Part shown: piece after piece, positions 3,601 through 22,858 of the stretch | Position numbering within the stretch: position 1 is the stretch's first letter | How the letters are laid out: each line of letters starts with the position of its first letter | NCBI GenBank assembly: GCA_014191195.1 | Contig: BJGZ01000013.1 | Span: 24,492-74,688, forward strand | Length of the DNA: 50,197 nucleotides | Origin: Chlorobiota bacterium | Lineage (GTDB): Bacteria > Bacteroidota > Ignavibacteria > Kapaibacteriales > UBA961 | Direction of reading: 5' to 3' | Position numbers and translations under genes: made by a program | The notes under the pieces: generated by a model | What the model was told of the DNA's origin: nothing | What the model saw: only the letters and a program-made list of their open reading frames with translations | The model's database searches: none

Positions 3601-6600
3601 TGCATCTTGTGTGGTATTAGCATTTGCTATGGTAACTGTTGGGCTGATTGCACTATTATTTGAAGCATTAATTGCTGTTCCTGTAACTGCAATCGCTCTA
3701 AATCCAGTACCAGTCGCTGTGTTTTCTGCTGTTAATGTATTACCTGCTGTATTACTTGTAAATACTGTTTGAAGCGCTTGTAATGTACCACCAACACTTA
3801 GATTTCCAGTTACTGTTTGATTACCAGCTACTGTGGTTACACCTGATGATGTAATTGTTGTATTGGTAGCATTTATGGAAACATTGCCTGTATTACCTAT
3901 GGAGGTATTACCTGCACCTGTTGCATTAATAGAAGTATTTCCAGTAACGGTTGTTATACCTGTTAAAGTTGTTGGACCATTTACCGCTAAACTTGTATTT
4001 AAGGTAGTTGCACCTGTATTTACTAATGTTCCTGTTAATGTAGTATTTCCACCTACTGTTAAATCACTAGAAGCACCACTGATATTCACATCACCTATTG
4101 CTTTTAATGCAATACCAGAAACATGAATATTGTGTAAGTCTAATGTTGCTGCAGTTGGGCTATTATTATCACCTTCAATTGCAGAACCTGTGATTGCAGT
4201 TGCTTTAATTGCTTCGCCAGAACCTGCATTGTCATTATTATTTACAATTAAGGTATTTGTATTTAAAGCACTAGTTGTTGCAGTAGTTGTACCATTAATA
4301 GCATTTGTACCATTAATTGTATTTGTTGTACCATTAATTGTAACATTGCCAGTATTTCCAATAGTTGTATTTGAAGCACCTGTTGTATTGATATTTGTTG
4401 TACCACTAACAGCTACTGTACCACCTATCATAGTTAATGTATTGCCGGTATTTCCAATAGTTGTATTACCTTCTGCAGCACCATCATTAATAGTAGTTAC
4501 ACCATTAATATTTGTTGCGCCATTAACTGTATTAGTTGTCCCTGTAATTGTGACATTACCTGTATTACCAATTAAAGTATTTGCATTGCCTGTTGTATTT
4601 ATTGAAGTAGCACCTGTTACACCAACAGTAGTACCTGTTACAGTTACACCGCCTGTTACATTACCAATTGAAGTACTATTTGTACCAGTTGTATTAACAT
4701 TCGTTGTTCCTGTAATGGTATTTGTTGTTCCTGTAATAACATTTGATGTACCGCTTAATGTATTTGTACCACCATTCAATGACACTGTCGATAAGCTATT
4801 ACCAATTTGAGTAGCAGCTGCACCAGAAGTATTAATTGTTGTTGCACCCAATACATTTGTTGCGCCAGATACGCTAATATTTGTACCAGCAACTGTTACA
4901 TTGCCTGTATTTCCAATATTAGTATTTCCAGCACCAGCAGTATTTATTGAAGTATTTCCAGTAACTGTTGTTACGCCATTAACACCTACTGTATTACCTG
5001 TTAATGTTAATGCATCAGCTGTATTACCAATAGTTGTTATGCCATCATTAGCTGTTGAATTTATTGTTGTAGCACCATTTACATCAAATGTTGTTGCATT
5101 TACATTCACGGCATTATTCAAATTACCAATGTTTGTATTACCACTATTTGATGCTACATTGATTGATGCACCACCAATTGAGGTGATTCCACCATTAAAT
5201 GTTGCAGCGCCTGTATGAGTACTTGTACCTGTTAATGTTGAATTACCAGTTACATTTAATGTACCTCCAATTGCAGTGTTTCCAGCAATTGTTCCAGTGC
5301 CACCAACACTTAAGTTAGCTGTTACTGTTTCAGAACCTGTTACTGTTGTTGCTCCATTAATGCCTACTGTAGCACCTGTTAATGTTAAGGTACTTGCACT
5401 ATTACCAATTGTGGTACTTGCTCCTGTGCCGGTTCCAGTCGGAATTGTTGTATTTAATGTAAGTCCATTACCACGGATATCAGTTGTATTTCCAGCATTT
5501 CCAATGTCTGTTTTACCTGCACTTAAAACACGATTAATTTGAGTTCCACCCTCAACATTTAATGCTAATACACTGCTACCAGATGTTAATGCTACTAAAC
5601 CTTCTCTAGTAGTAGTTAATCCAGTATTTACAACAAGACTACCATCAATCACTGCACCATTCGTTGTAACCAATAATTGATTATTTAATGTTGTGGTACC
5701 GTTAACTGTTGTTGGTCCGTTGACTAATAAACTAGTATTAAGTGTAGTAGCACCAGTGTTAACCAATGTGCCTGTAACTGTTTCATTACCTGTTATTGTA
5801 GTATTACCTACTATACCTGTTGCACCTGTGATTGTAGTTGGACCAGTAATGCCTACTGTACTACCAGACATTGTTAATGTATTAGAACCATTACCAATTG
5901 TTGTATTGCCTTCTGAAGCACCACTATTGATTGTTGTAATACCATTAACATCTAATGTATTATTTACTGTTGTTGCGCCATTTAATGTTGTAGCACCTGT
6001 TACTGTGGTTGTACCACCTACATTCAAATTGCTACCTGCATTTAATTTTACATCGCCAGCAGTTACTTGGATTGCATTACCACCTACACCTGCATTGCTT
6101 GCTAAGATGGCTGCTTTTGTTGTACTTGAATTTGAGGCTTCTATTGCATTACCTGTTGCTGCTACTGCTTGGAATGCTTTTCCTGTTGATGTATTCTCTG
6201 CTTTTAATGATGCACCTGGATCTGCTACACCAGATGTAAATATTGTTTGTAATGCTGTTAATGTACCACCTACACTTACATCGCCTGTCACTGTTTGATT
6301 ACCTGTAATTGTTGTATTACCTGTAATTGTTGTTGGGGCTGTAATACCTAATGAACTACCTTTTAATGTTAAGATATTTCCTGTATTACCTATGGAGGTT
6401 GCACCTGAAGCAGCTGTTGTATTTACTGTTGTTGTACCAGATACATCTACTGTACTACCTTTGGCAATAAGTGTATTATTACCATTACCAATTGTGGTAG
6501 TTCCTGAGCTAGATGTAGAGTTAATACTTGTATTACCTGCTACTGTTGTAACACCAGTTAAATTGGTTGCGCCATTTACATTCGCGCCACCATTCATGGT

Positions 6601-9600
6601 TGCTAAACCTGTTACTGTTTCTGTTCCACTAACTACTTCTGATGCTACTGTTGTTGCACCTGCATTTAATGAACCAGTTACAGTTTCATTGCCTGTAATT
6701 GTTGTATTTCCTACTATTCCTGTGGCACCTGTAATTGTAGTTGCACCAGTAATGCCTACTGTATTGCCACTATTACCAATTGATGTATTTCCTTCTGCTG
6801 CACCTGTATTAATATTGGTTACACCATTAATGTCAATTCCTGTTGTTGTGGAATTACCATTAAGAGTAACGATACCAGTTGCATTACCTATTGTTGTATT
6901 ATTATTACCTGTTGCATTAACATTTGTTGTACCTACAACTGTGGTTGCGCCATTTAGATTAGTTGCACCATTTACTGTTGCACCACCATTCATGGTTGCT
7001 AAACCAGTTACTGTTTCTGTTCCATTAACTACTTCTGATGCTACTGTTGTTGCACCTGCATTTAATGAACCAGTTACAGTTTCATTACCTGTAATTGTTG
7101 TATTTCCAACTATCCCTGTAGCACCAGTAATGGTTGTTGCACCATTGATACCTACTGATCCACCTGTTAATGTTAGGGCATCTGCTGTATTGCCAATAGT
7201 AGTGATACCATCATTGGCTGTTGTATTTATTGTTGTTGCGCCATTTACATCAAATGTTGTTGAATTAACATTCACTGCATTATTCAAATTACCAATAATT
7301 GTTGCACCGCTATTGGATGCTGTATTAATTGATGCACCACCAATTGAGGTGATTCCACCATTAAATGTTGCTGCGCCTGTATGAGTACTTGTACCTGTTA
7401 ATGTTGAATTACCAGTTACATTTAATGTACCTCCAACAGATGTAGCGCCTAATGATGAAGTACCTGCATTTAGTGTTCCTACTGTTGTGTTTCCACCTAC
7501 TACAGTACCACCAATTGATACATTACCTGTAACTGTTTCATTGCCTGTAATTGTTGTAGCACCAGTTATATTAGTTACACCATTAATGCCTACTGTATTA
7601 CCAGATAATGTTAATGTATTAGAACCATTACCAATTGTAGTATTGCCTTCTGCAGCACCATTATTGATTGTTGTTGTTCCATTAACATCTAATGTATTAT
7701 TTACTGTTGTTGCGCCATTTAATGTTGTAGCACCTGTTACTGTGGTTGTACCACCTACATTCAAATTGCTACCTGCATTTAATGTTACATTACCACCAGT
7801 TACTTGGATTGCATTACCACCTAAACCAGCATTTTTAGCAACAATCGCTGCTTGAGTTGTGCTGGTATTAGATGCATCAACTGCATTACCTGTTGCTGCT
7901 ACTGCTTGGAATGCTTTTCCTGTTGATGTATTCTCTGCTTTTAATGATGCACCAGGATCTGCTACACCAGATGTAAATATTGTTTGTAATGCTGTTAATG
8001 TACCACCTACACTTAAGTTACCAGTTACTGTTTCATTTCCAGTTAATGTTGTATTACCTGTCATTGAAATAGTAGCGCCACTAAGTGTTAACAAATCACC
8101 AGTATTACCAATATCTGTATTATTTGCAGCAGATGTGTTAAGTGCATTAATTCTTGTTGCACCCTCAACTACTGTTTGACCATTAATATTCGTTGTATTA
8201 TTTACTGTAGTAGGACCATTAAAGGTAGCTGCACCAGTATGTAAACTTGCACCTGTAATTGTAGTATTACCAGCAATGCTAACATTACCAGTAACTGTTT
8301 CATTACCTGTTAAAGTTGTATTTCCAGTTAAAGATAATGTGCCAGTAGAATTACCAATTGATGTATTTGATGTTCCACCAGTATTGATACTTGTTGTACC
8401 AGTAATACTTGTAGGTCCATTAACAGTTTCACCACCATTTAATGTAGTTAAACCAGCAACTGTTGCTGTTCCAGCAACTATTAAGTTTGTACCTACAGTA
8501 GAATTACCAGTAACTGATTCATTACCACCTACAATCAAATTGCTATTGCTGTTTAATGTTACATTACCACCAGTAACTTGAATTGCATTACCAGTAGCAT
8601 TACCATTAGATGCAATAATAGTTCCATTAGTTGCACTTGAATTAGAAGCAACAATTGCACTTCCACTTTGAGCACCAGCTGTAAATGCACGGCCAGTACC
8701 TGTATTTCTTGCTTCTAATGATGAACCAGGATCTGCAACATTACTTGTGAATAATGTTTGAAGCGCTTGTAAAGTACCACCAACACTTAAGTTTCCACTA
8801 ACTGATGAATTACCATTTACTTGTGTATTACCAGTAACTGTTGTATTACCACCAAATGTAGTATTACCAGAAACACTTAATGCAGGTCCACCTGCATTTG
8901 TATTTGTAATAGTTACTGTTGGTTGTATTAATGATGATGCAATAGCATTAGTATTACCATTAAGATTTGTAGTTCCATTAACAGTAGTTGTATTATTGAT
9001 TGTAGTTGCACCAGCTAAGGTTGTTGCACCTGTAACTCCAAGAGTTCCACCAATATTTGTTGCACCTGTTTGTGCATCTACTGTCATTCTTGATGCATTA
9101 GCACCTACTTGTAAACCACCACCAACTTGATTAGCTACAAAAACACCATTTGAAAAACCAGATGATGGATTAGTTATTCCAGTACCAACTTGAACATTAT
9201 TATCACCAGTAGTTAAGATACTATTGATTTCAATATTACCATTTGTACGAAGTGCTAATCTATTGCCTGCTGCAGTATTACTAATTAATACTGTTGGAAC
9301 AGATGCTGTACCACTTGTAGCTTCAATTGCATTTTGTCCAGTTCCATTTTGAGTTACTACTAAAGCGTCTGCATTAGCATTTGTAACTACTCTCATACCA
9401 GGAGCTGTTGAAGATGTTCCAGAAATAGTTACTTCTACACCAGGATTATTATTACCTGAATTATCAAATGCTTTGGTAACAGAAACGCCAGAACCAGTAC
9501 CACTATGTGTTACTGATAAACCAGAATTATTAGAAACTGGTGAACTCATCACAATATTAGCGCCTGTACCAGTACCACTATTATTGATATTTAAGCCTGT

Positions 9601-11796
9601 ACCAGAACCTGTGCGGTCTACATTAATTGCAGGAGCACTATTAATTCCTAGGTTTTGTGTAATATTTAAAGAAGTGCCAAGACCATTGCTTGCTAAGCTA
9701 GCAACAGAACCTGCACCTGCTTGTGTACCTGTAAATGACGATGTTCCTGCACCTGAATTAGAATTTACTGTAATACCATTACCAGAAATACCAGTTGTAT
9801 TTGTATTATTAATGCTGATACCAGCACCATTACCATTTTGAGTAATTCTTACAGCTTCTGATGCATTAGTTGAAGGAATAGTTACATCAACACCTCTGCC
9901 ACCAGCAGATGTAGCTGTAACTGCTGGGCCTGCAGCTGCAGATGCCGCTACGCCAGTTCCAGTTAAACTTGCTATTGCATTTACAGCAGTACCACCATTT
10001 GTTGTTGTTGCATTAACACCAAAACCAGAAGTAGATGTTGCATTAACACCATTACCTGAACCATTTGCTGTTGCAACTACTGCATTACCTGTACCAGATG
10101 TTGTACCACTAATTGCTGCACCACTACCTGTAGAAGCAGTAACACCAGCGCCAGATCCACTGTGAGTAACTGCAATACCAGCTACATTATTATTAGCACC
10201 TTGGGCTACTGTAATACCAGAACCAGATGTTGTTGTATTTGATACAGCAATACCTACTGTTCCTGCACCTACTGTATTATTATTAGCAATTACATTAATA
10301 CCAGAACCTATAGTACCAGGATGTGTAATTCTAGCAGCTGGGCCAGTTGCGAATGGGCTAACTGCAGCGTCTAATGCAATACCAGTATTAGTATTGATTT
10401 GAACACCAGCTCCAGTTCCTGTAGTAGTTACACCAACGGCTGCTGCTGTACCTGCATTAGTTACGGAAACTGCACTTGCTGTAGCATTAACATCTAATTG
10501 ATTTGCAACTAATGCATTTGCTGTAGATGCTGTGCTACGATTACGGAAAACTGCTGTAGGTGCATTACCGCTATTTGTTAAGCGGAACATTGCATTTACA
10601 CTAGTTGAAAGATTAATTGTTGTATCAGCATCAATTGGAAATGCGAGACTATCATTACGTGCCCAAGCTAATGCTGTACCATCAAAACGTAAAATTTGAT
10701 TACGTAAAGTAGGATTATTTAACCAGCCTTGGCGTCCACCAGCTTGACCATCAATACCAACTAATAAACGATTTGCACCAACATCAACAGTTGTATTAGC
10801 TGTTGCATTAGTTTCTGTTGCAAATGTTCTTGGGGTTAATTTTCTCCATCCAAGTGAAGTGCCATCCCAATGAAGTGCTGTATGAGGTAAAGCTGCTGTA
10901 GGAGCATCTAACCATTCCATTGAGTTAGCGCCTGTTCCCATGAGAAGTTTCCATGGTGCTACAGTGGTAGGAGTTGTTTTTAAATTTTCTGGAGTAATTG
11001 TGCTAAGAGCAATTTTATTTCCTGTTACAGAACGGTCTGCAAGGTTTGAATTAGAAATGCTTCCAGCAGCAATTTTAGTTGAATCAATTGCGCCATTTGC
11101 AATTTTTGGACGTGTTACAGCTAAGTCTGCAATACGATCTGTTTTAACTGCACTAACAGCAATTTTTGGATTAGGATAATCACCTGTTAAATCTCCACTA
11201 GCTGGGCCAGATGGAGGAAATTCAAGATTAGCAGAAAGTTTTGACTTGGTAATTGCTCCGTCAGCAATTTTAGAAGTTGTTATCGCTCCATCTTTAACAG
11301 TTGGGTTTGGATAATCACCAATCAAATCTCCACCTGCAACACCTGTTGGTGCTGCAAAATCTGCTCTCGTTGCATGGTCTGCATCTAATGCTCTTTTAGC
11401 TAATTTAGCTGTATCTGCATTGATTGCTGTAAATGCATAAGGAGCCGGTGTAAGACGTACTCTTACTACTGGCTCTGGAGCTGATTGAGGAGTTGTTGTT
11501 AACCAATAACCTTTATCAAATGCTAAATCTAAAGTCTTTCTTTCACCTAATACAGCACTGAATAAACCATTCTGTGTTTGCACAACATGATTTTCAGTGT
11601 ATAATGGGGTTCCACCAGATTCTAATTCATAAATCCTGAATGTTACATTATATGTATCATTTTTGACAGGAATATTATTTGCATCTGTTAAAACACCTTG
11701 ATAGGTTAAAAAACGCGGAACTTGTGCTTCTACATTGCTAACTGGTAATGCAAGCGCGCTTGAGGCGGCTAGACCAATAAGGAGACTTCTTCTCAT
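1..11796 (-). CDS. Giant repetitive exported surface protein, C-terminus beyond window
   Basis: The frame is open from ATG at 11796 to the left edge, exactly 3932 codons with no stop seen, so the gene is 3'-truncated. GGAG lies at 11806-11803, 7 bases before the ATG. Residues 1-25 are a signal peptide (MRRSLLIGLAASSALALPVS, then a cleavage region ending in EAQ). Next comes a head of about 90 residues (VPRFLTYQGVLTDANN, then YNVTFRIYELESGGTPLY), a module common at the N-terminus of tail-fibre-like FCB proteins. Residues 150-270 hold repeats such as GDLTGDYPNP and ADGAIT-SKIADGAI. The remainder is low-complexity Thr/Asn/Gly/Val/Ala repeat of the type GATTVTGTE, GNTTVGGN, LSVGGT, almost free of Cys and aromatics, with a hexapeptide-like beat suggesting a beta-solenoid stalk. 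I infer a surface adhesin or fibre. An S74-type chaperone or a sorting domain could lie beyond the window. It is probably co-transcribed with the T9SS cargo gene 51 bp upstream. Confidence 0.9.
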   Translation of the reverse strand, partial: MRRSLLIGLAASSALALPVSNVEAQVPRFLTYQGVLTDANNIPVKNDTYNVTFRIYELESGGTPLYTENHVVQTQNGLFSAVLGERKTLDLAFDKGYWLTTTPQSAPEPVVRVRLTPAPYAFTAINADTAKLAKRALDADHATRADFAAPTGVAGGDLIGDYPNPTVKDGAITTSKIADGAITKSKLSANLEFPPSGPASGDLTGDYPNPKIAVSAVKTDRIADLAVTRPKIANGAIDSTKIAAGSISNSNLADRSVTGNKIALSTITPENLKTTPTTVAPWKLLMGTGANSMEWLDAPTAALPHTALHWDGTSLGWRKLTPRTFATETNATANTTVDVGANRLLVGIDGQAGGRQGWLNNPTLRNQILRFDGTALAWARNDSLAFPIDADTTINLSTSVNAMFRLTNSGNAPTAVFRNRSTASTANALVANQLDVNATASAVSVTNAGTAAAVGVTTTGTGAGVQINTNTGIALDAAVSPFATGPAARITHPGTIGSGINVIANNNTVGAGTVGIAVSNTTTSGSGITVAQGANNNVAGIAVTHSGSGAGVTASTGSGAAISGTTSGTGNAVVATANGSGNGVNATSTSGFGVNATTTNGGTAVNAIASLTGTGVAASAAAGPAVTATSAGGRGVDVTIPSTNASEAVRITQNGNGAGISINNTNTTGISGNGITVNSNSGAGTSSFTGTQAGAGSVASLASNGLGTSLNITQNLGINSAPAINVDRTGSGTGLNINNSGTGTGANIVMSSPVSNNSGLSVTHSGTGSGVSVTKAFDNSGNNNPGVEVTISGTSSTAPGMRVVTNANADALVVTQNGTGQNAIEATSGTASVPTVLISNTAAGNRLALRTNGNIEINSILTTGDNNVQVGTGITNPSSGFSNGVFVANQVGGGLQVGANASRMTVDAQTGATNIGGTLGVTGATTLAGATTINNTTTVNGTTNLNGNTNAIASSLIQPTVTITNTNAGGPALSVSGNTTFGGNTTVTGNTQVNGNSSVSGNLSVGGTLQALQTLFTSNVADPGSSLEARNTGTGRAFTAGAQSGSAIVASNSSATNGTIIASNGNATGNAIQVTGGNVTLNSNSNLIVGGNESVTGNSTVGTNLIVAGTATVAGLTTLNGGETVNGPTSITGTTSINTGGTSNTSIGNSTGTLSLTGNTTLTGNETVTGNVSIAGNTTITGASLHTGAATFNGPTTVNNTTNINGQTVVEGATRINALNTSAANNTDIGNTGDLLTLSGATISMTGNTTLTGNETVTGNLSVGGTLTALQTIFTSGVADPGASLKAENTSTGKAFQAVAATGNAVDASNTSTTQAAIVAKNAGLGGNAIQVTGGNVTLNAGSNLNVGGTTTVTGATTLNGATTVNNTLDVNGTTTINNGAAEGNTTIGNGSNTLTLSGNTVGINGVTNITGATTITGNETVTGNVSIGGTVVGGNTTVGTLNAGTSSLGATSVGGTLNVTGNSTLTGTSTHTGAATFNGGITSIGGASINTASNSGATIIGNLNNAVNVNSTTFDVNGATTINTTANDGITTIGNTADALTLTGGSVGINGATTITGATGIVGNTTITGNETVTGSLNAGATTVASEVVNGTETVTGLATMNGGATVNGATNLNGATTVVGTTNVNATGNNNTTIGNATGIVTLNGNSTTTGIDINGVTNINTGAAEGNTSIGNSGNTVGITGATTITGATGIVGNTTITGNETVTGSLNAGATTVASEVVSGTETVTGLATMNGGANVNGATNLTGVTTVAGNTSINSTSSSGTTTIGNGNNTLIAKGSTVDVSGTTTVNTTAASGATSIGNTGNILTLKGSSLGITAPTTITGNTTITGNQTVTGDVSVGGTLTALQTIFTSGVADPGASLKAENTSTGKAFQAVAATGNAIEASNSSTTKAAILASNAGVGGNAIQVTAGDVKLNAGSNLNVGGTTTVTGATTLNGATTVNNTLDVNGITTINSGASEGNTTIGNGSNTLTMSGSTVGITGPTTITGATGIVGNTTITGNETVTGTLVNTGATTLNTSLLVNGPTTVNGTTTLNNQLLVTTNGAVIDGSLVVNTGLTTTREGLVALTSGSSVLALNVEGGTQINRVLSAGKTDIGNAGNTTDIRGNGLTLNTTIPTGTGTGASTTIGNSASTLTLTGATVGINGATTVTGSETVTANLSVGGTGTIAGNTAIGGTLNVTGNSTLTGTSTHTGAATFNGGITSIGGASINVASNSGNTNIGNLNNAVNVNATTFDVNGATTINSTANDGITTIGNTADALTLTGNTVGVNGVTTVTGNTSINTAGAGNTNIGNTGNVTVAGTNISVSGATNVLGATTINTSGAAATQIGNSLSTVSLNGGTNTLSGTSNVITGTTNTITGTTNVNTTGTNSTSIGNVTGGVTVTGTTVGVTGATSINTTGNANTLIGNTGNVTITGTTNTVNGATNINGVTTINDGAAEGNTTIGNTGNTLTMIGGTVAVSGTTNINTTGASNTTIGNTGNVTINGTTNTINGTNAINGTTTATTSALNTNTLIVNNNDNAGSGEAIKATAITGSAIEGDNNSPTAATLDLHNIHVSGIALKAIGDVNISGASSDLTVGGNTTLTGTLVNTGATTLNTSLAVNGPTTLTGITTVTGNTSINATGAGNTSIGNTGNVSINATNTTITSSGVTTVAGNQTVTGNLSVGGTLQALQTVFTSNTAGNTLTAENTATGTGFRAIAVTGTAINASNNSAISPTVTIANANTTQDALSVTSGNVTLSGGSDLTLGAGSNLTVGGNSSVTGSETIATNLSVGGNATITGSANVNGGATVVGATSINATGAASTTIGNTGNVTITGTTNTVTGTTNNVNGATNINGITTINDGASEGNTTIGNASNSITMVGNALGVTAPTTITGLTTISNSTNNVVVVNANSTAPNVGVTVNQAGVGTGLSVSRTSTTSVAPAVSISSLATGANGTALEVSSANTGYSSTINNTNTGSTNARAMNITSSNDNGSGTAKADYSTVRIANSGAAGKYALQTFGNVQVNSYLEGTTVSGNNIPLFQLGNELNHAGITGGGTMSGLIIGSDNQTSRTRMYYNSTTGNFVVGPKISVTTQDFFKVDPVNSNVSINNTGSSSSGNVLDIVSNSSNNLSRAFTISQGAAAASSSQPLVEFTRLTAGGGAVLSVVSQVPNTNESTYAFEVNANSAQAGGAIGATVNNANAVAAELRNLITGGVALSVPLGQTILGYDVDGATPYIQTSLRVENNDSVAPGFPTALFNNARGAASTAISITGGGISVTGGGDVTLGTGSDLSVAGNTTLTGNTTVGGNLSVGGTLTAATTVFTRSTNGGYALRAVNTDNTADPADTGHAFNAEALSGRAIVATSSGSEPTVMITNSGAGNAITASGPVSITGATTVTGSETVTTNLSVGGTGTVTGATSLGNTLNVTGATTLASTLNAQGVISNSTGNVTITDATDITGSTTVVGATNITGATTVVGATNINATGAANTTIGNTGTLTLNGTTVGINGATTVTGTESVTSNLSVGGTATVAGATTLSSTLNVTGNTTVSGSETVSGALAVGGAVSSASTFTSNAAAASTVTITNSDNTLPGASTGLTLTSNSGKALVATATDQQPTATFSNTGTTVNGGNAISATAAGNTTTLSVSNTGAGNAITATGPVTITGATTVVGATNINATGAANTTIGNTGTLTLNGTTVGINGATTVTGTESVTSNLSVGGTATVAGATTLSSTLNVTGNTTVGGNLSVGGTLTAATTVFTRSTNGGYALRAVNTDNTADPADTGHAFNAEALSGRAIVATSSGSEPTVMITNSGAGNAITASGPVSITGATTVTGSETVTTNLSVGGTGTVTGATSLGNTLNVTGATTLASTLNAQGVISNSTGNVTITDATDITGSTTVVGATNITGATTVVGATNINATGAANTTIGNTGTLTLNGTTVGINGAT
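616..856. repeat. Nested direct repeat, copy 1 (pairs with 1195-1435)
   Basis: 241 bp matching 1195-1435 without visible difference, at an offset of 579 bp (193 codons). It overlaps both ends of the 635-bp repeat, so this part of the giant gene is a mosaic of shuffled blocks. Confidence 0.85.
1195..1435. repeat. Nested direct repeat, copy 2 (pairs with 616-856)
   Basis: Second copy of the 241-bp block. It flows directly into copy 2 of the 635-bp repeat, sharing 1309-1435. Confidence 0.85.
1309..1943. repeat. Long direct repeat, copy 2 (pairs with 1-635)
   Basis: Second copy of the 635-bp block. Synonymous sites match too, which implies recent duplication or ongoing gene conversion rather than selection on the protein alone. 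Confidence 0.9.
4997..5272. repeat. Diverged direct repeat (pairs with 7163-7438)
   Basis: About 276 bp resembling 7163-7438 at an offset of 2166 bp (722 codons). There are scattered substitutions, with the last 110 bp nearly identical. It is older than the 635-bp pair. Confidence 0.7.
5849..6275. repeat. Diverged direct repeat (pairs with 7586-8012)
   Basis: About 427 bp resembling 7586-8012 at an offset of 1737 bp (579 codons). It includes one copy of the 'ADPGASLKAENTSTGKAF' cassette. Substitutions are scattered and no frame change is visible. Confidence 0.7.
6585..6725. repeat. Diverged direct repeat (pairs with 6981-7121)
   Basis: About 141 bp resembling 6981-7121 at an offset of 396 bp (132 codons), with only a few substitutions. 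Confidence 0.7.
6981..7121. repeat. Diverged direct repeat (pairs with 6585-6725)
   Basis: Partner of the block 396 bp to the left, in the same reading frame of the giant gene. Confidence 0.7.
7163..7438. repeat. Diverged direct repeat (pairs with 4997-5272)
   Basis: Partner of the block 2166 bp to the left, in the same frame. Confidence 0.7.
7586..8012. repeat. Diverged direct repeat (pairs with 5849-6275)
   Basis: Partner of the block 1737 bp to the left, in the same frame. Confidence 0.7.
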
Positions 11797-11847
11797 GCTA
11801 AACTCCAAAAAAAAATATAATATTTTAAAATTTTAAAATCAATGTTA

Positions 11848-12432
11848 TTATTTAACCAACATCATAGGAATGCGGGACTTCATATTATCCCCTGCACTTG
11901 TTAATGACATCTCACATATATAATTGCCGGCTCCTAAGTCTGCTCCAGAATCATCTTTGGCATCCCAAGTAACCATATGATCACCAATTTCTCTAAACTC
12001 ATTATTTACTAAAGTTCTTACTTCTCTACCTACCATATCATAAATTTTGATTGATACAGTCGCACTTTGCTCTACAATAAAATTGATAGTTGTTTGATAT
12101 GCAAAAGGATTAGGATAGTTAAATAATAAAGGATTTGAACCCATAGTACCTGTATTATCATCTACTCCAGTAGGACCAGACGCTAGTCCAGCAAAACCCC
12201 AGAATCCTATATACATTTTATAAGGATTAGCAGATACAGTTCCAACAACAGGTTGGCCAATTGTAGAAGAAGTTCTGTATTGTCCACTAGCAACATTAAT
12301 TGCACCACCACTAGCAATTACATGCCAATTAACTTTAGCTGGCGCCTGTGCTTGAACAATGGATGTACTTGCAACACTCATTCCCAAAAGAATAAGCATT
12401 GAAAACATCACATTTTTTAAAACAACTTTCAT
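11848..12432 (-). CDS. Small secreted protein with T9SS type A sorting domain
   Basis: 194 residues. A signal peptide (to about residue 29, ending VQAQ) is followed by a region of about 70 residues with the 'W-x-VIASGGA ... IGQP' pattern often seen before sorting domains. A C-terminal domain starts at NYPNPFAYQTTINF, continues with a conserved 'IYDMVGREV' strand and a FlgD-like 'WDAKDDSGADLGAGNY' loop, and ends in Leu-Val-Lys. This is the type A sorting signature: exported by Sec, passed through T9SS, cleaved by PorU and anchored or released at the surface. GGAG sits 5-8 bases before the ATG. Only 51 bp separate it from the giant repeat gene downstream and I see no terminator, so the two are probably one transcript. 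The mature part is too small for an enzyme; a structural or partner role is guesswork. Confidence 0.85.
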   Translation of the reverse strand: MKVVLKNVMFSMLILLGMSVASTSIVQAQAPAKVNWHVIASGGAINVASGQYRTSSTIGQPVVGTVSANPYKMYIGFWGFAGLASGPTGVDDNTGTMGSNPLLFNYPNPFAYQTTINFIVEQSATVSIKIYDMVGREVRTLVNNEFREIGDHMVTWDAKDDSGADLGAGNYICEMSLTSAGDNMKSRIPMMLVK

Positions 12433-12944: not shown

Positions 12945-15758
12945 TTATTTTTTCTTTTTCTTTATTTTTTTTTCGAATTTAAATATATCAAGCATGTTAA
13001 TTTCTTTTTCTTTACTGATAATATTCTCAATTACAGAAGCCCAGAATGCATCTTTTTTGAATTCATATTCTTTTTGGATTAAAGAATACAATTCCTTTTT
13101 AATTGTAATTTCTTGATTTAAACACAATGTAGATATATCTTTCACGGTTACGCTTGAGTCTTTAAGTATTATAGCAGATGATAGATACAGTTTCATTTCT
13201 GTATTTACTCCATTCCCAAACAATATCTGCAAGTTATTAGTAATCAACTTTTTTGAATTCATTATCCCTTGTATGGCACTATTTCTTGTCAATTGAAATT
13301 CTGATTTATGTAAAAGTGACTTAAAAATCTGAGATACATTACTGGGAAATAATATACCTATTGAATATGCTGCCCTTGCCCTAACAGATTGATGTGTATC
13401 ATTTAGTAACTGTACTAATGTATCTATGATAATATGAGAAGTATCTCCAATTTCTCCTAATTGTTGAGCACACAAGGCTCTGATTCTCCAATCTTGATCA
13501 TTAGTATAAGAATATATATTTTCGATTGCTTTTTTTATTTTCAATTTACCACACATAGCTAATGCAAAAGTTTTTACTGCATATGTTTCTGATTCTAAAG
13601 AATCTAATAATATAGATTGTATTGTATCAGCATATGCCTCGTATAACTTTGGCAATAAATAGTCTAATGCCAGTCTCTCTCTTGGAGATTCTGTTCCAAA
13701 TTTTGTAGATAAGAATAATATTGCATCCATTCCTTTTGATATCAATGCATTTCTGGCTGGAATTACATTGTACTGATATTTTTGTGGTGCTGCTGATGCT
13801 TGAATAAATAAACTATCAATATTTTGTGATAAAGGTTCATTGATATTAGTTTGATTTGTAGTTGCAATTGATAATGTGCTAGGATGTAGAATATCCTGAT
13901 CTAAAAAAAGTCCAAATGTAGATTGAAGTGTGAATGAATTATTTTTTAATTGACTTCCATATATGTCTACACCATTTCCATCAGCAAAAATTCCAATCAT
14001 TCCATAATTTCTTCTGAAATCTGAATATCCCATAGTATTCGTTGTATTTTTAGCTATATAAGAATCACTTCCTATTAGATCTAAAAATATGGAAATTGCA
14101 TTTGCATTTCCTGCACCTAAAGAAAGGCTTTCAGCTTGATAACTATCATTTCCTGCTTCATCAACTAATATTCCACTTGCTATATCATGACCACAGCCCT
14201 GCGATACTCCATGAGATACATATATATCATCACCTTGCTTATCCCATAATAATCCTTGGGCCAAATGAACCCCAGAGCCTTGGGCATATTGATAGGCTTG
14301 ATATTTATCTTCTCCCTCAGCATCATATAATGCCCCAAATGAATACCAATAACCTGTGCCCTGAGCATAAATATCCGCTATATATGTGTCATTACCTCGT
14401 AAATCCAACAATAATGCAAAGCCTCCTGAGGCAATCGGACGATATCCCAATGCTGCTCCTTGAGCAAATGACTCATAATGTGCATCATATCGTAAGAAGT
14501 CTTGAAAAGGGCTTGCACATACATACGTATCATTACCTGTCTTATCAGCCAATATACCAATACCTTGGGTTGCTGCAAAAGCTTGTCCATGTGCATCTAT
14601 TGTATATGTATCATTGCCAGCATCATCTATGAATAAGCCAATTCCAAAAGAACCCATTCCTTGAGTATTTGAACCAGCTCTATATGTATCATTTCCATCA
14701 TAATCATGTAGATATCCAATACCAAAAACACCCGATGCTTGAGAAAAATTATGTGAATGATATAAATCATCACCTTGGACATCATACAATAATCCAGCGC
14801 CAAATAATCCAGAAGCAATCGTGAAATCGCCTCCTAAATACTTATCATTACCACCTAAATCTATAATACATTGTATTGGCTTTGTTAAAGCTTGTGCTTT
14901 ACCAGATATTGGAATATATGTATCATCTCCTCCTGGATCTAAAATAAAGATATAATCTCCCTGATACATATCATCGCCATAACTTCCAATGGCAATCATT
15001 CCATACTTAGTTTTAATTTTTATTGGTTCTAATGAGTTTTTATATACTTCATGCATTCCCTTGCTGATTTGAATCAGCCCTTCATATGTTCTAGCTAAAG
15101 ATAAACCATTAGAAATAATAGTTTTAGGAGATTCAGCCTCATTAAAAAATTGTTTAGATACAAATTGTCCTTGTATCTCAGCTGCTTTAAGTTCATAAAG
15201 ATTTGCAGATTCTCCGTCTTTTGTAATCATGATTATCGAATCTGCTTGGCTTACTAAAAATGTATTCTTTAATAATTCAAATCTAGATTTTTGCATATTT
15301 TGTATTGCAGATATCAAAGGCCCAATATATTGTCTAATTACAAAAGCTGTAGTCAAATTTGAAATCGTGTCTAATCCTAAACCCAATATCCCATCTAATT
15401 TTGTTGCAGAAATATTATCTGAAAGATATGCAGCATTATATTGTATTCCACCTGCATCGTTAAGCATCAATGAAAACCATTTATCTGCATTTGACGAAGA
15501 ATAGTCACTAAATAATTGAACATGGTTATTTACAATATCTCCCATGTCCATAGGTTTTTCAAAAAGACGTTTTTGTAATAATGATCGATGCTTGTCTATA
15601 CTTATAGCATCCCAATTCATAAACAAGTCTTTTCTTTGCATCTTTAACTTAAGTAAAGATGTATCTAATAATTGAAATGCTTTTTGATCAAAACCCTTTT
15701 GACCATACATAGATACAGAAAATGAACATGCAAACAATATGAATAGAAGTGCTTTCAT
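12945..15758 (-). CDS. Secreted 'GND-x-Y' beta-repeat protein with HEAT repeats
   Basis: About 937 residues. The signal peptide is MKALLFILFACSFSVSMYGQ. The first 260 residues match no family I know. Residues about 260-600 carry roughly 13 copies of G(N/D)D-x-Y (GDDTY, GNDKY, GNDTY, GDDIY, GNDSY) at a steady 26-27-residue step, with a shared core 'QG-x-G-x(2)-GIG-x-L-x-D'. This suggests a beta-helix with Asp-rich, possibly Ca-binding, turns. Residues about 690-870 hold HEAT-like helical pairs (DQDWRIRALCAQQLGEIGD; HQSVRARAAYSIG). The tail ends KKIKKKKK and no sorting domain is visible. ATG 15758 overlaps the TGA of the upstream DUF971 gene by one base; GTG at 15761 is an alternative start. 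The coupling suggests co-expression with DUF971, but no function can be stated. Confidence 0.85.
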   Translation of the reverse strand: MKALLFILFACSFSVSMYGQKGFDQKAFQLLDTSLLKLKMQRKDLFMNWDAISIDKHRSLLQKRLFEKPMDMGDIVNNHVQLFSDYSSSNADKWFSLMLNDAGGIQYNAAYLSDNISATKLDGILGLGLDTISNLTTAFVIRQYIGPLISAIQNMQKSRFELLKNTFLVSQADSIIMITKDGESANLYELKAAEIQGQFVSKQFFNEAESPKTIISNGLSLARTYEGLIQISKGMHEVYKNSLEPIKIKTKYGMIAIGSYGDDMYQGDYIFILDPGGDDTYIPISGKAQALTKPIQCIIDLGGNDKYLGGDFTIASGLFGAGLLYDVQGDDLYHSHNFSQASGVFGIGYLHDYDGNDTYRAGSNTQGMGSFGIGLFIDDAGNDTYTIDAHGQAFAATQGIGILADKTGNDTYVCASPFQDFLRYDAHYESFAQGAALGYRPIASGGFALLLDLRGNDTYIADIYAQGTGYWYSFGALYDAEGEDKYQAYQYAQGSGVHLAQGLLWDKQGDDIYVSHGVSQGCGHDIASGILVDEAGNDSYQAESLSLGAGNANAISIFLDLIGSDSYIAKNTTNTMGYSDFRRNYGMIGIFADGNGVDIYGSQLKNNSFTLQSTFGLFLDQDILHPSTLSIATTNQTNINEPLSQNIDSLFIQASAAPQKYQYNVIPARNALISKGMDAILFLSTKFGTESPRERLALDYLLPKLYEAYADTIQSILLDSLESETYAVKTFALAMCGKLKIKKAIENIYSYTNDQDWRIRALCAQQLGEIGDTSHIIIDTLVQLLNDTHQSVRARAAYSIGILFPSNVSQIFKSLLHKSEFQLTRNSAIQGIMNSKKLITNNLQILFGNGVNTEMKLYLSSAIILKDSSVTVKDISTLCLNQEITIKKELYSLIQKEYEFKKDAFWASVIENIISKEKEINMLDIFKFEKKIKKKKK

Positions 15759-16117
15759 CACTGTTTATTATCTTCCATTTGTGATAATTGCTCTAAATCT
15801 GAAAAAGACAATGTATATTTTTCAGACAATTGACGTAGTTTTTCCCACGTATAAATTCCTGTATGATGGCCATCCTTCCAATTTGCCTGAATACCATAAT
15901 TTCCTACCGGTATTAATGCTTCTAATTCATTCATACCCGGTAAAAATGTCTTTATTCCAAAGGAGATTCTTTGTCCCATAATTTCCTCCCCTTGGCATGC
16001 AGCACATGGACATTCCTCACGCATTTTTTCTAATTGAATTATATATTCTGATTTGTCTTGCCAAATTATCTTCAATAAATAAGGCTTTGGTCTTTCTATG
16101 GTAATTGGTGGATTCAT
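15758..16117 (-). CDS. DUF971 (GBBH-like N-terminal domain) protein
   Basis: 119 residues. The family hallmarks are present: a Cys cluster REECPCAAC near residues 34-42 and 'DGHHTGIYTWEKLRQL' near residues 82-97. This small domain is also the N-terminal part of gamma-butyrobetaine hydroxylase, where it binds zinc. Stand-alone versions are common in bacteria and often sit near iron-sulfur or cofactor genes, but their role is not settled. Its TGA overlaps the ATG of the downstream repeat protein, so translation of the two is probably coupled. Confidence 0.85.
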   Translation of the reverse strand: MNPPITIERPKPYLLKIIWQDKSEYIIQLEKMREECPCAACQGEEIMGQRISFGIKTFLPGMNELEALIPVGNYGIQANWKDGHHTGIYTWEKLRQLSEKYTLSFSDLEQLSQMEDNKQ

Positions 16118-17647: not shown

Positions 17648-18730
17648 TTAAGGAATATTACCAATAAGAGAGAATCTCATTGTATTACCCAAAGGATGAT
17701 TTTCTTCTGTTGGAATGATAAAACTGAAATCCATATTAAATACATCATAACGAATACCAGTACCGAAGGTAAAAAACCGTCTATTACCTACAGAAGCAGG
17801 CTCTGTAAAATAACCAGCCCTTAAAGCAACTACTTTTTCATACCAATATTCCATACCGAATGAAGATTCAATTCCACCAACTTCCCAAGCAGTAATAAAT
17901 GATTTTGGTATAGGATCATTTACCAAACTATCGCGTCTTACAAGTAATTTTGCGATATCAACAGCTAAAGTTAGTTCATTAAATTCATCTTCTAGAACTT
18001 TAAGTGAAGTACCAAGTCTTAAGGTAGTTGGTAGTGGGTCAGATACATTTAAATAGGTTACTTTAGGTCCAATATTAGCAAGATTAAAACCTAAGCCAAA
18101 TTTATCGCCAATATCCCATCCGAATAGATCAAGATTAGAGGGACGCCACAGCATACCTAAATCGAATGCAACACTTCTACCGATACCGTCGCCAGTGCCA
18201 CTTCCTTGTGCATTGACAGGTGCCCCGAGATTAGATTGAATATATTTTAATTGAAATCCAGCACCAATATCATCGGCTATCAAAGTGCCATAACCAAAAC
18301 CTAATGCAAACTCGAAAGAGCGAAAAGTATTAAGGACTTTTCCGCTAAAGTCTGTTCTTTTGAATTCGCCAAGATTCATCAGCATAAAATTCACATTAAT
18401 TGTCCCTTCTAGGCTAGGAACATATTGTCCATATGCTGCATGCGCATAAAACAAATCAGCATTAAATTGGGGCAACCATTTTGCATAAGCTAAACCAACT
18501 TTTCTATTTAATTGTTTTGTAGTTTCTGGCATTTGAAAGGCCAAGCCACCAACATTCCAATGAGTAGCATAAATATTATCGGCTAAACCAGTACCAACTT
18601 CTCCCATCCCATTTGCGCGAGAATCAGGAGAAATCGTAATGAATGGAACGGCAGCTTGTCCAAAAGCAATAGTTCCAGAGCATAGAACACAAGCAATAAT
18701 CTTGCTCACAACCCACAATAGTCTTTTCAT
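17648..18730 (-). CDS. porV: T9SS outer-membrane protein PorV (LptO family)
   Basis: 360 residues from ATG 18730, preceded by GGA seven bases upstream. An ATG at 18748 has no ribosome site and would put six residues before the signal peptide. Mature protein opens with 'AAVPFITISPDSRANGMGEVGTG', close to the PorV/PorQ consensus, followed by alternating beta strands of a FadL-like barrel and a C-terminal 'FSFIIP-x-EE-x-HPLGNTMRFSL' segment typical of the family. PorV receives cargo from the translocon and works with PorU in the attachment complex. It lies 39 bp downstream of porU. A PorQ/PorP-like paralogue is possible but less likely because of the porU linkage. Confidence 0.88.
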   Translation of the reverse strand: MKRLLWVVSKIIACVLCSGTIAFGQAAVPFITISPDSRANGMGEVGTGLADNIYATHWNVGGLAFQMPETTKQLNRKVGLAYAKWLPQFNADLFYAHAAYGQYVPSLEGTINVNFMLMNLGEFKRTDFSGKVLNTFRSFEFALGFGYGTLIADDIGAGFQLKYIQSNLGAPVNAQGSGTGDGIGRSVAFDLGMLWRPSNLDLFGWDIGDKFGLGFNLANIGPKVTYLNVSDPLPTTLRLGTSLKVLEDEFNELTLAVDIAKLLVRRDSLVNDPIPKSFITAWEVGGIESSFGMEYWYEKVVALRAGYFTEPASVGNRRFFTFGTGIRYDVFNMDFSFIIPTEENHPLGNTMRFSLIGNIP

Positions 18731-18769
18731 AAATATTCCATCTATCATTATTATATTAATTTGTCTTAA

Positions 18770-21700
18770 TTATCTAATCTTTAATATTTCATCTGTCATA
18801 CGCATGCTAGATCCATTAGCTGAATAGGCAATCACAGAACAAATATATAAACCAGAGCTAACCGCATTTCCATCATTATCTTTTCCATCCCATTCATAAA
18901 TCCATGAATGGAGTTCATTTTGGGTAACTTTATCAGATTTAATTAAAGCACCATTGACAGCAAAAATACGAATTTCGGCAAAGGTTGGTAAAGTTTGATT
19001 ATGATTAAATCTGATAGAAGTAGAATTTATCATTGGATTAGGATAAATACTTAATCCTTCAGTAATCATATTTGAATCATTATCTGCTAATCTAAAATAG
19101 GTTTCGGCTTCTGAATAATTATTCCATACATCCCAAGCTCTTACACGAACAGAAGTGGTTTGTATAGGAAGATTTAAGATTCTCTTTTGCGTTGTACCTT
19201 TTCTAGAATCAGTTATTTCTGTTTCGAAACCATCTGTTAAATCTACTGGTATATAGCTTGTATTGAACCAAGCTTCTATTTTATGTCCGATACCAGCACC
19301 TGTAGAATTTATACCAGTTTCATCGAATAAGTCTACAATCAAAAGAGGTGATTTTCTTATTAAATTTCCAGGTTGAAAAGTCCTATCGTCCATATAAACT
19401 TGTATTATAGGACCAGATTTATCAATATCATCAGATTGTTCAATACCACCTACTGTAAAAGCCTGTGAGCATCCTTTGGCAGAACTTCCTTGTTCTGGGT
19501 CATATGCATAACTAAACAATTTTCCTTTTTTATTAGAAAAGCTAATATCCTTTGGAATGACAAATGATGCGGTAAACGAGCCATCTTTTACAGGATAAGA
19601 ACTTCTATTTAAAACACCACCATTTTCTAGAATTTCATGGGTAGCATTGTCTTTTGGGTCAAATGCTTTTAACTGAATATCATGTTCTTTCATTGTTAAA
19701 AGTATTCTACCATTAAAGGAATTCAACTTGGTTTTATCAATCGACTTAATAATCTCACCTTGTATCTCTACTTTTTGCAAAGCTTTTACTTTGGGTAATA
19801 AAGAATCGGCGGGTAATGGAGTACTTTGTGGAATGTCGGAATTATTAATACTAAGAACTTGTACATCAAGATTTGGTATTTTCAAATGCATTGAAGGATC
19901 GCCCAAAATCAAATATTTTTCTGCATTATCATCATATAAATATTGTTTTGTTCTATATAATGCATCTCCAATGGATAGATAATCTCCATTAGCTTCTTTT
20001 GTAAAAAGAAATTTATAGTACATCTCGCAAATATCTGCATTTTGATAAGAGAATACTGGACGTGTTGCTGCAAATACTCCGATTGCTCCACCCCTTGTAC
20101 TTCTAATCAATTCCTCTGCTCCAGATTCTCTTTCTGCATCATCGAATCTTGCAAAATCACACGTTGCTGCGGTAAGATAGAAAAGCCTATCTTTATTTGT
20201 CATTTGAGGTATAGTTGTTTCTTTTTCAAAGATCCTTTCATGCGCCCAGAGTCTAGGACTTCCATGTCCTATCCAATTTAACAATACAGCACCTGTAGTA
20301 TTAATATCGGTTAAAAGTTGTTGCGTAACTGCTGGTTTGCGCCTTCCATTTGGTACATTTTCTACAGGATATTCAGCTAAATATATTTTTTTTAACTGCA
20401 TATCACTAGGAATTACAGTTGAAGCTAACATTTCTGATTGTTGAGTATGTTGAGTTCCATCAGATCCAACACCAACTGGGCCATCATCAGCAACCAAACA
20501 AACTGTAGTTTGCCATTGTCCTGGATCTGAGTTTTCTTCATAATGTTGTAATTTATCTACTAGTTCTAAGCCATTAATAGGTGAAAGAACCGGCATTCTA
20601 CCAGCAGAAATATCAACTTTGGCATCATTACCAATCGTTCTGGCAAAATAATCATCGATACAAGATGTAATGGTTGCATTAAATGATCCACATTCTTGAT
20701 CGGTTTGGTATGTAGGAACATAGTTAGTAGCAGCTAATTGAATGCCTCTATAATCATAATGTCCATCGCCCCAAAGCAATAAATATTGAGGCTTATTAGT
20801 CCAATAATTCAAAGCATACGATACATAATCTCTAATTGCAGTTATATCTGTTATACCACTAGAAAATTCATTATAGATTTGCTCTGTAGTCGCAATTTTT
20901 ACTGTTATTTTGCTAGTACTTTCTTTAAACTTTTTATACTTCTCGGCTGATTCCATTAAATCTGCATGAGTTATAAGAAGCATTGAAGCGCCATTTATAT
21001 CATGTCTTAAATTTGCAAAATCAGTTATAATCAGTTTTGGATTTTTAAATTCGGAAGCTAAAAAATATCTTTTAGCTTGATTATTATTTTGCATAGCACG
21101 AAAAATATACAAGCCACCTGTTACAGAGATATTTTGTAATAATTCTGGGTTTTTATCATCTGTAATATCGAATCCAAAAATCTCATTTCCTGAGAATTGA
21201 TTTATTGAATATTCAATTCCACCATTGATTGTAGAATCAGAAAATATTTCTAATTGATTAGAAGTGGCTGTAAATTCTCGTGGATAAAGAATTTCGAACC
21301 AATCAACAAATCCTGAACTTGTAGCACCAGCAGATGGATTTCTATAAGAAAACTTAAGAATACTTCTATTATCATTCGAAATAGTATTAGCTGGAATTGT
21401 AAAACTCTGTTCGCAAGAACTTATTGATTCTACATAATTATAATAACTGTCATAAGGATTTGTACCTAGAACATACATTGAATCAAAAACTGTATTATTC
21501 TCACTTATTGAGAAGTAACCAGTTTTAGTAGATTTATGTGATACACAATACCGATATGTAATTTCACCACTTCTTGATAATCCATGTAGTATCGTAGAAT
21601 AGTTAAGTGGAACAGTGCTTTCTACAGATTTACCATACCACGTTCTTCCAGATGGGGCTGCAAGGGCATTATATAATTCATCTTCAGTAAATACTCTACT

Positions 21701-22858
21701 GTTAAATTTAGTTGGCTTACTAATAACTTGATCATCTTTTAAACTTGGTAAAGCTTCAGCGCGCAAACCAATTGAGCCACCTGCAGTAATCAAGTATACA
21801 TTTTCTTTTGAAAATGGATGAGTAAAATGTCTATAATCACCATTTTTATATATAAAACCAGATGGGCCTTCTCCATAAAAATATATAGCATCCAATTCCC
21901 CATTAGCCTTTGTTTTAACTATAATCTTTTGTTCATTCATTGTATTAGATAATGCCGAATCAACATTTTCTGACAATAACTTTGCCCCATTTCCATATAC
22001 TTTAATGGTTGGTATTTCTTCTGGTTTTATTGATAAACCTGCAGATGAAAGGCTAGCAGCATCAACTTTATATATTCCTTGAGAAGAAACAATCATTTTT
22101 AACCATTTAGACTTTACAGTTTCTTGAACTTTTGCTATATTTTTAGAAAATGCAGTTGAAGAAGCTAGAATCCAATCTTTAGTTTCATGATGATTTATAG
22201 ATATCTCTGGATCATATTCATCTTTTACTGTTGATATTGAAGGTCCATTCGGAGTAAATCTAATCTCAACAATAAGATTTTTAGGTATATCAATTGTTCC
22301 AGATTGATTGTCATACTTTGCTATAATCACCGATAATTGCGCAAGATGTCTATTCCTTGCAATTCCCTGATACACTAAAGAAGACCAAGCACTATGATTC
22401 TGTTCTTGGTAAAGGTGCTCATCTATCTCATATGTAGGGATTGCTGGATTATCACCATCTAATTGCATATATGGTTTTGGAGTAATCATTCCTTTAATTC
22501 TAGACACAGATTGCGCTTTAGATGCATATAACTGAAATGCTTTGGCATTGGGAACTGTAATAGGAATTGAATATTGAAGTTGTAATGGACCACCCGATTG
22601 CTTTGCCACAGCAAAAGCACCAGTTATTCTAGGGAGAATTGTTAGATTTCCATTTGTTAAGCGAAGAGTGTCGAAGCCCTTTAATTCAGGTTGAAATTTT
22701 AAGATTAGTATCTCTTTAGTGGATGTTACTATCGAGCAACCTTTAGGTAAAAATATATCAGTCTTTGCAATAATATTCCCTGACATTGCAAAAATAAACC
22801 CTAAAACCAATGATAATTGGAAATTTGTCATCAAATTTTTTACAATTGAAAATACCAT
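18770..22858 (-). CDS. porU: T9SS sortase PorU, gingipain-family (C25) peptidase
   Basis: 1362 residues with a signal peptide or anchor near residues 10-31. After about 600 residues of beta-rich prodomain comes the C25 peptidase fold: 'PQYLLLWGDGHYDYRG', 'VPTYQTD', 'DDYFA', and the catalytic dyad His865 in NWIGHGS and Cys900 in TAATCDFARFD (spacing 35, close to gingipain spacing), then 'GGAIGVFAATRPVF' and 'YLILGDPSMHL'. The last 80 residues (GLSIYPNPMINSTSIRF to the end) are a FlgD-like sorting-type domain. PorU removes C-terminal signals from T9SS cargo and joins them to A-LPS. It sits just upstream of porV, which supports PorU rather than a cargo gingipain. Both catalytic residues are intact. 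Confidence 0.92.
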   Translation of the reverse strand: MVFSIVKNLMTNFQLSLVLGFIFAMSGNIIAKTDIFLPKGCSIVTSTKEILILKFQPELKGFDTLRLTNGNLTILPRITGAFAVAKQSGGPLQLQYSIPITVPNAKAFQLYASKAQSVSRIKGMITPKPYMQLDGDNPAIPTYEIDEHLYQEQNHSAWSSLVYQGIARNRHLAQLSVIIAKYDNQSGTIDIPKNLIVEIRFTPNGPSISTVKDEYDPEISINHHETKDWILASSTAFSKNIAKVQETVKSKWLKMIVSSQGIYKVDAASLSSAGLSIKPEEIPTIKVYGNGAKLLSENVDSALSNTMNEQKIIVKTKANGELDAIYFYGEGPSGFIYKNGDYRHFTHPFSKENVYLITAGGSIGLRAEALPSLKDDQVISKPTKFNSRVFTEDELYNALAAPSGRTWYGKSVESTVPLNYSTILHGLSRSGEITYRYCVSHKSTKTGYFSISENNTVFDSMYVLGTNPYDSYYNYVESISSCEQSFTIPANTISNDNRSILKFSYRNPSAGATSSGFVDWFEILYPREFTATSNQLEIFSDSTINGGIEYSINQFSGNEIFGFDITDDKNPELLQNISVTGGLYIFRAMQNNNQAKRYFLASEFKNPKLIITDFANLRHDINGASMLLITHADLMESAEKYKKFKESTSKITVKIATTEQIYNEFSSGITDITAIRDYVSYALNYWTNKPQYLLLWGDGHYDYRGIQLAATNYVPTYQTDQECGSFNATITSCIDDYFARTIGNDAKVDISAGRMPVLSPINGLELVDKLQHYEENSDPGQWQTTVCLVADDGPVGVGSDGTQHTQQSEMLASTVIPSDMQLKKIYLAEYPVENVPNGRRKPAVTQQLLTDINTTGAVLLNWIGHGSPRLWAHERIFEKETTIPQMTNKDRLFYLTAATCDFARFDDAERESGAEELIRSTRGGAIGVFAATRPVFSYQNADICEMYYKFLFTKEANGDYLSIGDALYRTKQYLYDDNAEKYLILGDPSMHLKIPNLDVQVLSINNSDIPQSTPLPADSLLPKVKALQKVEIQGEIIKSIDKTKLNSFNGRILLTMKEHDIQLKAFDPKDNATHEILENGGVLNRSSYPVKDGSFTASFVIPKDISFSNKKGKLFSYAYDPEQGSSAKGCSQAFTVGGIEQSDDIDKSGPIIQVYMDDRTFQPGNLIRKSPLLIVDLFDETGINSTGAGIGHKIEAWFNTSYIPVDLTDGFETEITDSRKGTTQKRILNLPIQTTSVRVRAWDVWNNYSEAETYFRLADNDSNMITEGLSIYPNPMINSTSIRFNHNQTLPTFAEIRIFAVNGALIKSDKVTQNELHSWIYEWDGKDNDGNAVSSGLYICSVIAYSANGSSMRMTDEILKIR

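Follow-up and report, generated by a model that had tools for sequence, protein, structure and literature searches.

The minus-strand gene at 12945-15758 of the window (the whole 50,197-nucleotide stretch of Chlorobiota DNA that was analysed) raises the question of what a protein that joins a long run of G(N/D)D-x-Y motifs to HEAT repeats is, and what it might do. The open reading frame encodes 937 amino acids from its ATG; an alternative GTG start lies one codon earlier and would extend the frame to 12945-15761. Thirteen G-x-[D/E]-x-Y motifs were found in the protein, ten of them strictly G[N/D]D-x-Y, matching the approximately thirteen reported in the initial annotation. At most five motifs appeared in 10,000 shuffles of the protein, which ruled out a chance or low-complexity origin. 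The start-to-start steps are 16, 26, 26, 26, 26, 27, 47, 27, 27, 27, 27 and 33 residues, so that the 26-27-residue spacing, described earlier as very steady, holds for nine of the twelve steps but fails for those of 16, 47 and 33. The 47-residue step is a single coil with a conserved inserted loop.

Structure prediction bore out the regular helix that had been proposed for these repeats, in the form of a 13-coil beta-solenoid. The AlphaFold2 model of the whole protein (70 sequences; pLDDT 91.2, pTM 0.87) consists of helices, the beta-solenoid and a HEAT arm, and the solenoid modelled alone (69 sequences) reached a pLDDT of 95.4 and a pTM of 0.93. The suspected HEAT tail was confirmed by Pfam (PF13646, 52.5 bits against a cut-off of 27.7; PF02985, 35.2 against 23.5), and the suspected export agrees with a hydrophobic, signal-peptide-type segment at the N-terminus, as judged by crude hydropathy only. 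The gene and its main parts are as follows.

12945..15758, minus strand: whole gene, 937 amino acids, comprising export signal, helical domain, GND-x-Y beta-solenoid and HEAT arm
15699..15758, minus strand: signal-peptide-like N-terminus, residues 1-20, cleavage site not predicted (hydropathy; helix 2-17 in the AlphaFold2 model)
15033..15686, minus strand: N-terminal domain made up of helices only, residues 25-242, with low conservation (AlphaFold2 model; identity)
13899..15023, minus strand: beta-solenoid of 13 coils, residues 246-620, per-coil consensus D-x-x-G-[N/D]-D-x-Y (motifs, model, fold match)
12951..13826, minus strand: HEAT-repeat arm, residues 645-936, best Pfam HEAT_2 stretch 753-831 (Pfam, model, fold search)
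12948..12971, minus strand: Lys-rich C-terminal tail, residues 930-937, lineage-restricted (sequence)

The solenoid is by far the best conserved of these parts. Among 57 full-length proteins, mean pairwise identity is 54.5% in the solenoid, 22% in the N-terminal domain, 33% in residues 645-840 and 15% in residues 841-937. The Lys-rich end, singled out earlier as a poly-Lys terminus, is present here but is not a feature of the family, since six or more Lys or Arg residues occur among the last 15 in just 13 of 56 full-length relatives. The statement that the protein fits no recognised family held for the solenoid. Pfam matched only HEAT models on the 937-residue protein and left the solenoid uncovered, NCBIfam gave only HEAT-type rows below cut-off, and phmmer against PDB chains returned only HEAT-repeat chains (alphaRep and similar) for the whole protein. 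A PDB sequence search with the solenoid alone found no match, the best profile E-value being 0.43. Nothing significant was found in the viral library, there was no match among plasmids, and PADLOC and PHROGs gave weak rows only; no paper on the solenoid family was recognised among titles and the opening lines of abstracts. The HEAT arm, by comparison, is of the same type as PBS-lyase-type HEAT proteins (HEAT_2, PF13646), with Z scores of up to 16.0 for alphaRep and 14.7 for the CpcE/CpcF complex, but differs from them in being exported and in being fused to, or encoded beside, a beta-solenoid.

Fold searches with the whole model listed only HEAT and other helical-repeat proteins, and the solenoid was therefore predicted and searched separately. 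The top fold given by VIA-align was 3p4g_B (Z 23.0, rmsd 2.4 Å, 259 aligned residues, 17% identity), followed by TibA (Z 17.1), LH3 (15.3) and the RTX-type chain RsaA (14.1). With Foldseek nothing reached E ≤ 0.001 (the best row had an E-value of 0.052 and 3p4g one of 0.59), so the likeness to the antifreeze fold comes solely from VIA-align. The 3p4g match of the predicted solenoid indicates fold class, not function. The matched structure is region IV of the Marinomonas primoryensis ice adhesin (MpAFP), which is described (PMC3492233) as a right-handed beta-helix that binds Ca2+ and is built from thirteen RTX-like repeats of 19 residues; the consensus of the RTX nonapeptide is GGxGxDxUx. The two proteins share the right-handed beta-helix, the number of repeats, a G-N-D turn and repeated acidic residues. 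The solenoid differs in its longer coils (26-27 residues compared with 19), in having D for G at RTX position 1 and a Tyr after the turn, in its inserted loop and invariant Gln/Arg/Trp/His/Asp site, and in its HEAT fusion; it has no Thr ice-binding array, and no sequence match between the two was found.

The turn itself is strongly conserved. Over 13 coils in 70 sequences, D occupies position -3 in 90% of cases, G position 0 in 98%, N or D position +1 in 79%, D position +2 in 97%, and Y position +4 in 97%. The G (98%), D (97%) and Y (97%) coincide with RTX positions 4, 6 and 8, and the pattern G(4)-x-D(6)-x-U(8) is shared with RTX (PF00353) proteins. The two leading glycines of the consensus are missing, position 1 being D in 90% and G in 7%, and position 2 being G in 11%. 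No HemolysinCabind (PF00353) row at E ≤ 1 was listed for 69 solenoids, and the window's genome gave 0 matches, although this model spans consecutive nonapeptides and is a weak test for a protein with one nonapeptide-like turn per coil. Because two defining features were tested for and not found, the solenoid was not assigned to RTX (PF00353). The RTX resemblance suggested in the initial annotation thus stands for the look of the turn, which occurs once in each longer coil, and for the nearest fold, an RTX-like Ca2+ beta-helix, but not for membership of PF00353.

The solenoid carries a net charge whose median over 69 proteins is -26 (range -39 to -18), which calls for cations. The RTX-like turn, the acidic charge and the 3p4g fold together make Ca2+ at each turn likely, by analogy with the fold class and from the acidic ladder, and the scaffold is predicted to work like an RTX-type Ca2+ helix. 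We consider it highly probable that the solenoid is stiffened by Ca2+. The same resemblances, namely the nearest fold and the agreement at positions 4, 6 and 8 of the RTX consensus (PMC3492233), would also suit a role in surface adhesion or ice binding like that of MpAFP or the RTX adhesins. There is only a slim chance that this is correct: the Thr expected at position 3 of an ice-binding array was not seen (A 19%, S 18% and G 15% were the most frequent there, and position 5 is N or D in 79%), a mean identity of 54.5% over phyla is unlike a fast-evolving adhesin, the PF00353 searches of the window's genome and the 69 solenoids were negative, and the protein begins with a Sec-type segment (crudely assigned) rather than carrying a C-terminal type I signal.

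The solenoid also carries a set of residues that do not follow its period, most of them in two stretches.

14421..14501, minus strand: loop inserted in the 47-residue coil, residues 420-446, containing D420, R423, Y424, H427, Q433, R440, P441 and GG445-446 (conservation)
14184..14363, minus strand: conserved-site core, residues 466-525, with Q466, YW470-471, QY490-491, H498 and GVSQGCGHD 517-525 (conservation)

Positions invariant in the 70 alignment rows include D420, R423, Q433, R440, P441, Q466, YW470-471, QY490-491, H498 and H524. The relatives from named records had been fetched with patterns holding H498 or H524, and counts for these two residues are inflated. A cleaner test of conservation is provided by 33 full-length orthologues, because their retrieval involved no such patterns (33 of 44 loci, the other 11 being partial, paralogous or HEAT-only), and in them the positions just named are at least 95% conserved. 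In 12 paralogues of other architecture, Q433, R440, GG445-446, Y470, W471, H498 and D525 were kept in all 12, Q466 in 11 and H524 in 10, whereas D420, R423, Y424, H427 and C522 were not kept. This pattern looks like that expected of a site for binding or catalysis whose cap is particular to the subfamily, in which the conserved residues would meet in one pocket.

A purely structural reading must be weighed against this, in which the protein is an envelope rod or spacer stiffened by Ca2+ and side-chain ladders, the conserved residues serve folding, and HEAT is the sole binding part. Tyr, Asp and Gln ladders do recur in register along the coils, with Gln at +11, and these may be purely structural; solenoid folds also often need capping residues. 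However, W471, H498 and D525, which share place +16 in three successive coils, differ in kind and so break the periodicity, and all three survive in each of the 12 paralogues that carry other domains; a rod with a purely structural role would be expected to tolerate drift. The structural rod is accordingly considered unlikely, and it is probable that the conserved residues form a functional site. That this site is catalytic is a possibility we rate somewhat below even. No known catalytic motif was recognised in the solenoid. Glycan-active enzymes with right-handed beta-helices, such as isopullulanase (3wwg, Z 9.6) and lacto-N-biosidase (7v6i, Z 10.7), belong to the same fold class, but with low Z scores and no shared sequence motif seen they only illustrate, by analogy, how a helix can carry a site.

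The reading of a functional site leads to a two-module proposal, to which we give a roughly even chance: the protein would be an exported component of the cell envelope, in which a Ca2+-type solenoid scaffold bears a ligand-binding or catalytic site and is joined to a HEAT arm. The first module would be a rigid rod, a right-handed beta-solenoid of 13 coils, in which the D-x-x-G-[N/D]-D-x-Y turn of each coil is likely to hold one Ca2+ along one edge, as in MpAFP region IV. Coils 7-11 and the inserted loop would bear, at places other than the Ca2+ turn, Q433, R440, Y470-W471, H498 and H524-D525, to which D420, R423, Y424, H427 and R582-R583 would be added in the subfamily of the present protein. 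The site may bind, and possibly chemically process, an envelope ligand, for which a glycan or an anionic molecule is our guess. The second module, the HEAT arm, might dock a partner protein or substrate carrier. The sequence, its periodicity, the domains, their conservation and the tie between solenoid and HEAT over phyla were observed directly, and the folds are predicted by a high-confidence model; Ca2+ binding, the meeting of the residues in one pocket, the enzymatic or receptor activity and the role of the HEAT arm are inferred.

The relation between the two modules was traced through relatives. A scan of named genome records with the single protein as query found nothing; a profile scan of the same kind of records gave 300 coding loci, and the analysis went on with the best 80. 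Alignment A2 (70 rows) comprises the window's protein and 69 of these best 80 of 300 loci, after removal of six loci for length, truncation or masked letters and of five truncated ones by hand (L079, L080, L088, L092, L093); L115 was additionally dropped for alignment A3. HEAT is fused to the solenoid in 57 of the 70 A2 proteins, whose relatives come from the best 80 of 300 loci, and the 13 A2 proteins without HEAT comprise 11 that are split and two that contig ends truncate. In all 12 split loci (the 11 and L123), the gene that follows on the same strand encodes HEAT. In another 20 genomes from the Zixibacteria phylum, hand-picked from listed matches, the next same-strand frame was HEAT in every case; 18 of these frames were returned by the ORF picker, and the other two, hidden behind a longer opposite-strand frame, were found on checking. 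Such fusion or adjacency over phyla ties the solenoid and HEAT modules together. Each of the seven split HEAT partners that were inspected begins with a hydrophobic stretch (those of L113, L118 and L121 being the most signal-peptide-like), and by sequence both modules appear to be exported.

The family extends well beyond the window's genome, which has one copy. A match was found in 32 of 41 near relatives (the window's genome counted). In a phylum sample, 22 of 296 genomes had the solenoid, all of them from the window's own class; in a class sample, 62 of 119 genomes matched the full profile, but 12 of them by HEAT only, so that 50 have the solenoid. The solenoid was present in 93 of 98 genomes of the phylum to which one Zixibacterial genome belongs. 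Deposited titles among the best 80 of 300 loci include Kapabacteria, Ignavibacteria, Chlorobiota, Zixibacteria, Eisenbacteria and Latescibacterota, together with Cloacimonadota, Calditrichaeota, WOR-3, Stahlbacteria and Neomarinimicrobiota. The solenoid family is real, broad, with members in several little-studied phyla, and unannotated in the libraries searched. A solenoid that is on average 54.5% identical across many phyla and present in nearly every sampled genome of one, yet absent by sequence from Pfam, NCBIfam and the PDB, constitutes a sizeable annotation gap, and its conserved site and constant HEAT partner make function testable in one purified protein.

Paralogues of other architecture, which lack HEAT, also exist. 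Those of the PDZ type (L137, L139, L140, L145) carry a PDZ-type domain ahead of the solenoid, and of the two among these four that were scanned, L140 scored 35.9 bits and L137 26.8 against the PDZ_2 cut-off of 27. Eight paralogues are of a plain type, and the four scanned gave no Pfam row. On a quick tree of 81 rows, the PDZ type required one change, the plain type one, the split type two and the fused type three, the rows counted as fused including two cut by contig ends ahead of HEAT. Four genomes (G188, G195, G202, G209) have three solenoid-family members each. In two genomes, RibD (riboflavin biosynthesis) runs in frame, with no stop, into an export signal and solenoid (L072:6816-10751, L115:2380-5048). 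The initial annotation, borne out in part, had missed this wide distribution, as well as the non-periodic site, the split solenoid and HEAT pairs, and the PDZ and plain paralogues. We tentatively propose, at a probability nearer one third than one half, that the solenoid is an enzyme or receptor of a new beta-helix class stiffened by Ca2+ (site Q433, R440, Y470-W471, H498, H524-D525), and that it is a near-universal exported component of several FCB-kind candidate phyla that has diversified by replacing the HEAT arm with PDZ or with none. Such a class would extend the RTX/antifreeze-type Ca2+ helix to apparent catalysis or ligand binding, as opposed to secretion or adhesion.

The gene neighbourhood offered two further readings, the first of which involves the upstream neighbour.

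15758..16117, minus strand: DUF971 / GBBH-like_N gene (PF06155), upstream neighbour, not a conserved partner (Pfam, ORF map)

This gene ends at 15758 and overlaps the ATG of the repeat gene by one base, a stop/start overlap that speaks for a translationally coupled unit with a shared function; the initial annotation had described the protein as coupled to DUF971. A DUF971 homologue (BLASTP E ≤ 1e-6) lies near the repeat gene in just four of the best 80 of 300 loci, all of them the window's nearest kin on the quick tree. The partnership was therefore rejected, and a shared function has hardly any probability left. Elsewhere the neighbours are NFACT, RibD and TPR genes (a second Kapabacterial clade), or DnaE, recombinase, TatC, NrdR, RNase_H_2, DnaB, FBPase and others (other lineages); these housekeeping genes change from one lineage to the next and point to no pathway. 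Of nine genes just downstream of the solenoid-HEAT pair that were scanned in the Zixibacterial phylum, eight have an RNase_H_2 domain (L168, L169, L170, L175, L176, L179, L184, L187).

The second reading is that of an accessory or cargo of type IX secretion. PorV-like and PorU-like (peptidase C25) genes of this system lie side by side at 17648-22858 (minus strand) of the window, and these and a sorting-tail protein are within about 7 kb of the repeat gene. Homologues of the window's PorV and PorU, however, accompany only four of the best 80 of 300 loci, and the repeat protein has no match to the C-terminal sorting domains PF18962 or PF13585 at E ≤ 1. PorV-like genes were present in every genome sampled (119 of 119 in the class, 98 of 98 in the Zixibacterial phylum), so co-occurrence discriminates nothing; with the solenoid in 50 of the same 119 there is no tracking, and a link by co-occurrence was rejected. 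A role in type IX secretion is very improbable, slightly more so than the adhesin.

Downstream of the repeat gene, a giant open frame (1-11808, minus strand) of at least 3936 codons runs off the window; it is full of 18/21-base tandem repeats and long direct repeats, and Pfam gave nothing for it at E ≤ 0.001. A 194-residue protein (11848-12432, minus strand), with FlgD_ig and a type IX sorting tail that scores below cut-off, is encoded between this frame and the repeat gene. Homologues of the 194-residue protein and the giant frame follow the repeat gene in the same order in several near relatives (for example L046, L047, L048 and L050).
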